DNA of 64,000 nucleotides, from assembly GCF_003992135.1 (NCBI RefSeq), contig NZ_RQVN01000001.1, forward strand, positions 62,001 to 126,000. The letters run 5' to 3'. Below the pieces are notes generated by a model. That model was not told the DNA's origin. It saw only the letters and a program-made list of their open reading frames with translations, and did no database searches. The translations under genes and the position numbers were made by a program. The DNA comes from Veillonella sp. VA142. Lineage in GTDB: Bacteria > Bacillota > Negativicutes > Veillonellales > Veillonellaceae. This document shows positions 28,045-30,885 of this stretch, in pieces (the first letter of the stretch is position 1; each line of letters opens with the position of its first letter).

Positions 28045-28095
28045 GTAAAAGATGGATGTAATTTTTTTATGTATAAGTTTACAAAGGAGAAAGTT

Positions 28096-29565
28096 ATGAA
28101 AGAAGAAAAATTGACAACAGCCTTTGGCGCTCCTGTCCCTGACAATAACAACAGTGCGACAGCTGGAAAACGTGGTCCTGTATTGATGCAAGATGTGTGG
28201 TTGATGGAAAAATTAGGCCACTTTGCTCGTGAAGTGATTCCTGAACGTCGTATGCATGCAAAAGGATCTGGTGCATTTGGTACTTTTACAGTAACAAATG
28301 ATATTACTAAATACACAAAAGCAAAAGTATTCTCTGAAGTAGGTAAAAAAACTGATTTATTTGTACGTTTTTCTACAGTAGCTGGTGAACGTGGTGCGGC
28401 TGATGCAGAACGTGATATTCGTGGCTTTGCTGTAAAAATGTATACTGAAGAAGGTAACTGGGATTTAGTTGGTAACAATACACCAGTATTCTTCATCCGC
28501 GATCCATTGCAATTCCCAGATTTGAATCGTGCAGTAAAACGTAATCCTGAAACTAACTTACGTGATGCTACTGCAAACTGGGATTTCTGGACTAGCTTGC
28601 CAGAAGCAATGCACCAAGTCACAATCGTTATGAGTGACCGTGGTATTCCAGATGGCTATCGCCATATGCACGGTTTCGGTTCCCATACATACAGCTTAAT
28701 CAATGCAAATGACGAACGCGTATGGGTTAAGTTCCACTGGGTATGCCAACAACCAATTAAAAATTTAACTGAAGATGAAGCAGCCGCTCTTATTGCGAAT
28801 GACCGTGAAAGTGCACAACGTGACTTATTCGATGCTATCGCTAAAGGTGATTTCCCACGTTGGAAATTATACATCCAAGTGATGACAGAAGAACAAGCCA
28901 ATGCTCTTCCATACAACCCATTTGACCTTACAAAAGTATGGTACAAAAAAGACTTCCCATTGATCGAAGTAGGGGTAATGGAATTGAACCGTAACCCAGA
29001 AAACTACTTCCAAGATGTAGAACAAGCTGCCTTTGCTCCATCTACAATCATTCCTGGTATTGGATTCAGCCCTGACCGCATGTTACAAGGTCGTTTGTTC
29101 TCCTATGCTGATGCGCAACGCTATCGTTTAGGTACAAACTACCATCAAATCCCTGTCAATGCACCTAAATGTCCATTCAACTCTTATCATCGTGATGGAC
29201 AAGGTCGTGTAGATGGCAACCATGGCTCTACTATTGGATATGCTCCAAATAGCTTTGGACAATGGGCTAACCAACCTCAATACAAAGATCCAGGATATGA
29301 CGTATCTGGTAAAGCATACCAATACGACTTCCGTGAAGATGACTCCGATTACTACACACAACCTGGTAAATTGTTCCGTCTTATGACTCCAGAACAACAA
29401 CAAGTATTATTCAACAATACAGCTCGTAATATGGCAGGAGTACCATTGTTCATCCAAGAACGTCATGCTAAACATTGCTATGCATGTGACCCTGCATATG
29501 GTGAAGGCGTAGCGAAAGCATTGGGCATTACAGTGGATTTCTCTACACCAGCTGACATCGGGTAA
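28096..29565 (+). CDS. Catalase (monofunctional, heme, small-subunit clade)
   Basis: Breaks hydrogen peroxide into water and oxygen. The 489 residues show the catalytic His in [16 protein letters not shown], the distal Asn region [12 protein letters not shown], and the proximal heme-ligand Tyr in [14 protein letters not shown]. The length suits clade 3 catalases without a C-terminal flavodoxin domain. The ATG follows AAAGGAGA; an ATG nine codons upstream is less favoured. The usual R-V-V/I-H-A-K-G active-site segment reads RRMHAKG here, a mild change. Veillonella are strict anaerobes with variable catalase reports, so presence of a full gene with a consensus promoter is notable. Confidence 0.95.
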
Positions 29566-29592
29566 CACTTGAAGCGCTATTTGTCTATGGCG
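29566..29592 (+). repeat. Short dispersed repeat directly after the catalase stop codon
   Basis: CACTTGAAGCGCTATTTGTC, then TATGGCG. Close relatives occur at 30545-30572 (directly after the doxX stop) and 30574-30602, so at least three copies flank the hairpin arrays. Confidence 0.6.
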
Positions 29593-29616
29593 TTCCTTTT
29601 GAGAATAGTATAATTG

Positions 29617-29763
29617 TAGGAGTGCGACACATTCCCTCACAAACGGTATTTCATAATGTTTGTTCGGGAACATGTCGCACTCCTTTTACATTGTCATGAT
29701 TAGAACAAAGGGTACACCATAGACTTCTACGCGCAACTGCGTTCAGAGAGAATAAATAGTGTG
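29617..29763 (+). repeat. 147-bp tandem repeat, copy 1 (hairpin unit)
   Basis: Starts with a 67-nt hairpin (29618-29684). The outer stem is AGGAGTGCGACA / TGTCGCACTCCT, with a second stem TTCCC..ACAAAC / GTTTGT..GGGAA, and TTTT follows. The remaining 80 bp include a small CGCGCAACTGCG structure. The hairpin plus U-tract may act as the catalase terminator. Copy 2 is identical. Confidence 0.92.
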
Positions 29764-29910
29764 TAGGAGTGCGACACATTCCCTCACAAACGGTATTTCA
29801 TAATGTTTGTTCGGGAACATGTCGCACTCCTTTTACATTGTCATGATTAGAACAAAGGGTACACCATAGACTTCTACGCGCAACTGCGTTCAGAGAGAAT
29901 AAATAGTGTG
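29764..29910 (+). repeat. 147-bp tandem repeat, copy 2
   Basis: Appears identical base for base to copy 1, which points to recent duplication or gene-conversion-like maintenance. Confidence 0.92.
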
Positions 29911-30037
29911 TAGGAGTGCGACACATTCCCTCACAAACGGTATTTCATAATGTTTGTTCGGGAACATGTCGCACTCCTTTTACATTGTCATGATTTGAGC
30001 AAAGGGTACACCATAGACTGCTACGCACAACTGCGTT
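29911..30037 (+). repeat. 147-bp tandem repeat, copy 3 (truncated, slightly diverged)
   Basis: The hairpin part is identical to copies 1 and 2. The tail differs at a few bases (GATTTGAGC for GATTAGAAC; CTGCTACGCAC for CTTCTACGCGC) and breaks off after CTGCGTT, shortly before the doxX promoter region. Confidence 0.9.
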
Positions 30038-30124
30038 GATGGGTAGATTTTTCGCGATAATGAAAGTATAATGAATGATATTAGATTTAAGTGTATGACA
30101 GTATTGGAATGAAAGGATAGTATT

Positions 30125-30544
30125 ATGGTTCATTTTTTGTTGCGTGGTAAACCGACTTATATCAATTTTGGTATATTAGTACTTCGATTAGGGGTAGGTA
30201 TTTCTATGATCTATCATGGATATTTGAAGTTTTTAAGTGGTGCAGCAGGTTTGTATAAAGTAGGAGCTATGTTAGCTCCCTTAGGAGTACCTGGATATTA
30301 TGAATTTTTTGGAGCTCTAGCAGCAATTTGTGAGTTTATTGGCGGTATTTTGGTTGTATTTGGACTATTTACTCGTTTTGGAGCATTGTTATTGGCTGGA
30401 GTTTTATGTACGGCTACGATTCTTCATTTGGAGGCAGGGTTCTTTTCGTGGGATTATCCATCGCAAATGGCATTTGCAGCATTGGCTATATTTTTCATGG
30501 GTGGTGGACGATATAGTGTAGATCACTCCCTATTTAGAAAGTAA
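30125..30544 (+). CDS. DoxX-family membrane protein
   Basis: Small integral membrane protein of 139 residues with about four hydrophobic helices. N-terminal LRLGVGISMIYHGYLKF and EFFGALAAICEFIGGILVVFGLFTRFGALLLA are typical of the DoxX/DoxD-like family (the second stretch is given in pieces: EFFGALAAIC, EFIGGILVVFGL, FTRFGALLLA). Family members are tied to thiol, quinone or sulfur redox chemistry, and the neighbour here is catalase, which suits an oxidative-stress role. The biochemical function is not established for this subgroup. ATG follows AAAGGATAG. Confidence 0.85.
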   Translation: MVHFLLRGKPTYINFGILVLRLGVGISMIYHGYLKFLSGAAGLYKVGAMLAPLGVPGYYEFFGALAAICEFIGGILVVFGLFTRFGALLLAGVLCTATILHLEAGFFSWDYPSQMAFAALAIFFMGGGRYSVDHSLFRK

Positions 30545-30625
30545 CTTGTTGTGCTATGTAGCCTGTGGGTCGTCACTTGTTCTGCTATTTAGTCTATGGC
30601 GGTCATATTTAATCGGGCAAAGGGG

Positions 30626-30690
30626 AACGAGCAACATATTCCTTCACAAACGGTATTTCTTAATGTTTGTTCAGGAACATGTTGCTCGTT
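30626..30690 (+). repeat. Diverged fourth copy of the hairpin unit with a changed outer stem
   Basis: Inner region (CCTTCACAAACGGTATTTC and AATGTTTGTTC) matches the 147-bp repeats closely, but the outer stem is AACGAGCAACA / TGTTGCTCGTT instead of AGGAGTGCGACA / TGTCGCACTCCT. Both sides have changed together, so pairing is retained. TTCTG follows. The tail continues to a CTACTACGCATAATTGCG stretch that parallels the tail of copies 1-3. Confidence 0.85.
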
Positions 30691-30701
30691 TCTGTATTGA
30701 G

Positions 30702-30827
30702 TGTATTTAGTTAGTAAAGAACTGCCACAAGGCTACTACGCATAATTGCGCTCCTCAGGTCGAGCTCGCTATAGGCTTCTCACGTTTGGGTGATTTAGTC
30801 AGTAAGGGACGCCACAAGGCTATTACG
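30702..30827 (+). repeat. Pair of ~38-bp direct repeats
   Basis: Copies at 30702-30740 and 30791-30827 share TTTAGT[TC]AGTAA and GCCACAAGGCTA[CT]TACG, 89 bp apart. They resemble the tail segment of the 147-bp unit. Confidence 0.7.
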
Positions 30828-30842
30828 TTTAACAGTTTTTTA

Positions 30843-30885
30843 ATTCTATAGAATCTTTACAGCTCTATAGAATTTGTGTTACAAT
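30843..30885 (+). promoter_or_regulatory. lysA promoter with two TCTATAGA palindromes
   Basis: TTTACA (30856-30861), 18 bp, TACAAT (30880-30885) with a TGT extension. ATTCTATAGAAT (30843-30854) abuts the -35, and CTCTATAGAATT (30863-30874) lies in the spacer; centres are 19 bp apart, about two helical turns. This is a good operator layout for a dimeric repressor of unknown family. Confidence 0.6.

Follow-up and report, generated by a model that had tools for sequence, protein, structure and literature searches.

The palindromic units behind katA and doxX in Veillonella sp. VA142 belong to a large family of dispersed elements, confined to one genus, which start at stop codons and often carry different hairpins at the same sites in different species. 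We favor, with a probability of roughly 0.6, the reading that these are REP/MITE-like, non-autonomous palindromic repeats whose whole hairpins are exchanged by recombination at the DNA level. According to this model, in an ancestor shared by six related Veillonella species, a nested palindrome of ~190 bp would have spread to numerous gene 3' ends, with each element beginning at the stop codon or a few bases from it and comprising a left arm, a ~65-nt central hairpin and a complementary right arm. Units would later have been duplicated in tandem, inserted into one another's loops and exchanged time and again between copies. A single site may therefore present one whole hairpin (stem and loop) in one species and another in the next, with its ends unmoved. 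Exchange probably takes the form of homologous recombination or gene conversion, with the conserved loop and arms as the shared sequence; the arms would remain complementary because whole hairpins move, because one arm serves as DNA template for the other, or both; and the original spread may have required an enzyme acting in trans on hairpin DNA. A start at the stop codon (including the last codons and stop of tyrS) combined with turnover of whole hairpins makes this a tractable case for how structured repeats move and stay perfect, and the six genomes permit a direct test of RNA- versus DNA-level maintenance of a covarying hairpin.

Elements behind katA and doxX

The window, the 64,000-nucleotide stretch of VA142 DNA that was analysed, contains four hairpins, at 29618–29684, 29765–29831, 29912–29978 and 30626–30690, all on the plus strand. 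The initial annotation had described three tandem 147-bp units and a diverged fourth copy past doxX, with the first two copies identical, the third nearly so and the fourth stem altered on both arms, and each of these points holds. Both element groups start directly at a stop codon. The first begins at the stop (29563–29565) of katA (catalase; ORF 28069–29565) with a left module at 29566–29614, identified by alignment to the left modules of other copies. Unit 1 (29615–29761) comprises the first hairpin, with a class A loop core at 29641–29661, and a right module. Unit 2 (29762–29908) is 100% identical to it, and unit 3 (29909–30055) has an overall identity of 88%, with an identical hairpin and a diverged right module. 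The second element begins at the stop codon (30542–30544) of doxX (ORF 30125–30544) and consists of a partly duplicated left module (30545–30620), the fourth hairpin, whose core at 30631–30685 has 89% identity, and a right module (30700–30761), followed by a degenerate, partial further unit lacking most of the hairpin (30762–30850).

Each hairpin is flanked by a pair of outer arms. In the katA group, GTCTATGG at 29583–29590 pairs with CCATAGAC at 29717–29724, and CCATAGAC recurs in unit 3 at 30011–30018. In the doxX element, GTAGCCTGTGG at 30558–30568 pairs with GCCACAAGGCTAC at 30724–30736, with a second left arm, GTCTATGG, at 30592–30599 and, in the degenerate unit, a second right arm at 30811–30828. 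The outer arms, the start at stop codons and the further partial unit are additions to the initial annotation. The stem pair is AGGAGTGCGACA/TGTCGCACTCCT in the tandem copies and AACGAGCAACA/TGTTGCTCGTT in the fourth hairpin, a change compensated on both arms. Unit 1 folds at −36.9 kcal/mol compared with −16.0 kcal/mol for shuffled sequences (z −7.2).

Element architecture and covariation

Alignment of genomic copies, for which 148 distinct full-length copies were gathered, revealed that the hairpin is the center of a longer nested palindrome of ~190 bp. A left module with GCTATGTAGCCTGTGGCG is followed by AAGGG and the ~65-nt hairpin and then by a right module, which carries CGCCACAAGGCTACTACGC and, further on, AACTGCGTTCCTCAGG and has an arm complementary to that on the left. 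RNAalifold recovers both the central hairpin and the outer arms. Terminal inverted repeats are present, with TGTGGCGTT pairing with the complementary right arm in 79–100% of copies and likewise in the fold of the window element. Several loop classes are built on this one architecture: A (GGTATTTCATAAT), B1 (TGATCCTACGGTAG), B2 (TGATACAGTGGTTAG) and rarer ones. A diverged element type at five gyrA ends has other outer arms, CTTTCTTGCC with GGCAAGAAAG, so the outer arms as well as the stems differ between loci in a compensated fashion.

The covariation test called for by the initial annotation gave a strong result. Across 29 hairpins aligned as representatives, 95.4% of cells are paired and 17 of 21 stem pairs show double-sided changes; the covariation score was reached by none of 500 shuffles, and slid controls were 33–46% paired. 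Conserved unpaired positions comprise two As opposite a C in the lower internal loop, a pyrimidine internal loop and an apical R.A mismatch, of which A17, A19 and the apical mismatch are conserved across loop classes.

Distribution

A covariance model detected at least 110–135 hairpins per genome in all six Veillonella genomes of one GTDB genus and gave no hits in 21 further genomes from the same family. A single weak hit, in a different genus, differs in its loop and appears to be an unrelated chance match. The earlier proposal, that the copies form a dispersed family in which the hairpin is preserved, is thereby borne out, on a far larger scale than had been guessed. The exact class A core occurs in the genome-contig collection only in Veillonella sp. 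3310, 3891, VA137, VA139 and CHU740, and has no match in viral contigs; a plasmid or phage origin was discarded after a consensus search matched no plasmid or phage record. Loop classes are unevenly distributed among species, B1 being abundant in CHU740 and B2 in VA139. Many contigs of the VA142 assembly (six were noted) break off no more than a few hundred bases from an element, which probably means that copies are undercounted. Searches of the available literature found no published Veillonella repeat of like kind, and the family is apparently new to the literature.

Placement behind stop codons

With mechanical ORF calls, 106 elements were scored for gene context and 10 elements overlapped a called ORF; the nearest upstream ORF lies on the same strand in 95 of the 106, a count that takes orthologous copies separately, and the median distance from stop codon to aligned element start is 16 bp. 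The left junction is sharp: a TAA or TAG stop, two bases, then CGTCACTTG. This exact spacing is found in 41 of 57 gene-adjacent left ends, representing ~15 independent genes. At the gyrA stop, the standard left end is present in VA139 and a different one in the other five species.

In every species the same sites lie next to housekeeping genes (tyrS and gyrA, and also pta and hcp), and nearly all sites read in detail hold an element in each genus member. Sister genera lack the element behind these genes. TyrS ends in KFIKIKFN* in the sister genera and in KFIKIVSC* in all six genus members, where the repeat encodes the last three residues and the stop codon. This difference indicates that the elements were acquired on the stem lineage of the genus. 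Among the sites read in detail, there was no clean case of a recent insertion separating species, no clear target-site duplication was evident at nested joins or right ends, and no clean empty site was found within the genus. Plain transposition leaves the exact stop-codon junction unexplained.

Hairpins with conserved unpaired bases, lying after stop codons in one orientation and combining a variable stem with conserved mismatches, also recall the attC sites of a chromosomal integron. No integron integrase (IntI) scored above the TIGR02249 cut-off in any of the six genomes, and the housekeeping neighbors, constant in all species, do not form a cassette array. The integron reading is largely refuted and, in our view, extremely improbable.

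Turnover of hairpins at fixed sites

Turnover was compared at seven chosen orthologous gene ends, as an all-against-all comparison of flanks was swamped by tandem copies. Across species, loop class differs in 59 of 85 orthologous pairs, in which the arms are ~87% identical and the coding ends ~90% identical. At tyrS, the hairpin has the GAGCACCACATAT stem in VA139 and CHU740 and a CCCATGG stem with loop A in VA142, and behind the element both VA142 and CHU740 keep a remnant resembling the GAGCACCACATAT stem; the pattern reads as hairpin replacement in place. Tandem copy number also varies between orthologous sites, and 5 of 203 hairpins are chimeric, one arm coming from each of two stem types with the switch at the loop. 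At about seven loci nested joins of the form CATAATG|TATCGTC were found, with the second element always beginning at the same position of the first hairpin's loop.

These findings qualify the earlier claim that pairing itself is selected: both arms do co-vary strongly, but much of the joint change reflects the swapping, at one and the same site, of whole hairpins that represent old stem types. Template switching that copies one arm onto the other could likewise change both arms with no functional selection. The family cautions against taking covariation as proof of a structured RNA.

RNA-level or DNA-level maintenance

The main competing explanation at the RNA level holds that the elements are functional 3'-UTR structures, in which the hairpin terminates or shields transcripts, or delays ribosomes at the stop codon, and is selected at each gene. 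Several observations are consistent with this: the elements adjoin the stop codon on the strand of the upstream gene, the RNA fold is very stable, the six species have retained elements at almost every site tested, and sister genera carry ordinary terminator-like hairpins at these gene ends. Moreover, E. coli REPs lying 15 nt or less from a stop codon are reported to stall ribosomes (PMC12306157).

Mismatches within the stems point the other way. G.T and A.C mismatches number 15 and 17 among 74 distinct stems, and 13 and 22 among 184 hairpin copies; in a control set of tRNAs from the fetched loci, the corresponding numbers are 25 and 0 (Fisher p 4.5e-6). With A.C as common as G.T, RNA-level selection on single copies is not visible on either strand, a test that bears on decay and selection at single copies and not on selection of the active ancestors, since young copies that are turning over would show symmetrical recent mismatches whatever selected those ancestors. 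An intrinsic terminator was also considered and rejected: the stable stem is present, but the tails behind it are no richer in T than the other strand (means of 4.1 and 4.0 T in 8), and four consecutive Ts occur in only 28 of 238 tails. Rfam yielded no match at the gathering threshold, only weak chance hits. Different hairpins at orthologous sites, the equal frequency of A.C and G.T and the lack of U-tracts together argue against a structured RNA or terminator selected at each copy, making this explanation possible but somewhat unlikely. The structured-RNA option of the initial annotation is accordingly disfavored in spite of the strong covariation, and some copies could still have a secondary role in transcripts.

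At the opposite extreme, there may be no selection at all, the palindromes being perfect only through replication slippage that copies one arm to the other (quasipalindrome correction) and spreading by duplication. The pairs are almost only Watson–Crick, with no preference for wobble, in keeping with this account, and homogenisation of arms by template switching is documented (PMC8604942). Correction of this kind would, however, erase the unpaired A17 and A19 and the apical R.A mismatch, which are conserved across loop classes, and we consider the account quite improbable.

Search for mobilising machinery

A RAYT or a parent insertion sequence is associated with most of the palindromic repeats that have been studied well; for the Veillonella family, at more than 100 copies, neither was found. 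The RAYT-type transposase that had been suggested as the mobilising enzyme is refuted for this genus, with Y1_Tnp (PF01797) detected in none of the six genomes while the controls were positive. Mobilisation by reverse transcriptase was set aside, as a single RVT_1 hit occurs in one of the six genomes. Rpn/PDDEXK_2 nucleases seemed linked to the elements in two clusters but were rejected, as there are only four in the genome. IS1182-type transposases (DDE_Tnp_1_6) are encoded in only three of the six genomes, and the ends of the intact element, GGGGCTGTAACAAAAT, are unrelated to the hairpins, which speaks against it as parent. No larger relative sharing the element ends turned up, the insertion sequence compared being this IS1182-like element.

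The IS1182 family offers a precedent for the turnover described above. IS1272, a member of that family, inserts at inverted repeats located behind genes, taking their place with no target duplication (PMC5678879). By analogy, an enzyme may recognise stem-loops near gene ends and swap them as IS1272 does, the Veillonella elements being its passive substrates. This would account for hairpins that differ at fixed sites without visible duplication and for elements joined exactly within hairpin loops; the patchy occurrence of DDE_Tnp_1_6 and the unrelated ends of its intact element weigh against it, and we judge it unlikely. A more speculative proposal, in which we place equally little confidence, is that gene 3' ends act as fixed docking sites in a hairpin-exchange system, where a structure-recognising recombinase of the genus would swap whole DNA hairpins by reading the conserved mismatches and loop class rather than the stem sequence. 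Tyrosine recombinases, which did turn up in the scan for integron integrases, would be the first candidates for such an enzyme. Loop classes might then be replaced genome-wide within a species, as with B1 in CHU740 and B2 in VA139.

Comparison with known systems

The REP/MITE-like reading that we prefer rests on likenesses to several systems, none of them complete. As in REP/BIME/REPIN–RAYT systems, more than 100 extragenic palindromes per genome form mismatched hairpins, mostly behind genes, and are clustered and lineage-specific. Unlike those repeats, the Veillonella element is ~190 bp long, combines a 65-nt hairpin with outer arms, forms direct tandem units instead of inverted doublets, and has neither the short GTAG-tagged palindrome nor a Y1 transposase in the genus. 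Membership of the REP–RAYT group fails on the defining feature that was tested, as there is no RAYT.

BOX repeats consist of modular tandem parts. MITE, BOX and ERIC elements resemble the Veillonella family in being <200 bp and intergenic, with imperfect terminal inverted repeats and a modular tandem organization. The Veillonella elements differ in their strong orientation bias, their stop-codon junction and their different hairpins at orthologous sites, and for them no target duplication was seen and no parent insertion sequence with matching ends was found; they count as candidate MITEs.

The nearest published behavior is that of IS1272 inverted-repeat replacement (PMC5678879) and of CGTC-tagged REPs (PMC3733652). 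With IS1272 the family has in common stem-loops behind genes, replacement of one inverted repeat by another and no evident target duplication. IS1272, however, is an autonomous insertion sequence, whereas the Veillonella elements are non-coding and have no ends in common with the IS1182-like element of VA142. CGTC-tagged REPs are 20–40 bp palindromes with 4–5 bp loops, tagged directly by CGTC, for which no dedicated transposase is known, and the text describing them does not mention Veillonella or Firmicutes (PMC3733652). Common to both are CGTC near one end, a place behind genes and the lack of a known dedicated transposase; in the Veillonella elements, CGTC opens a long left module.

Neighboring features

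Short hydrophobic ORFs of ~26 aa with a common leader adjoin several elements, lying behind them at four loci. Two such ORFs match Hol_Tox (putative holin-like toxin) above the cut-off, suggesting that putative type I toxin–antitoxin modules adjoin element arrays. A CptIN-family type III toxin–antitoxin toxin (NCBIfam; locus L123, 5521–6003, minus strand) lies inside an element cluster, which itself sits behind a large ORF (~1,400 aa) with the look of a trimeric adhesin. Close to elements at three loci there is also another dispersed hairpin motif, CCTAACG../..CGTTAGG, with GGCTCTTCTT after it.
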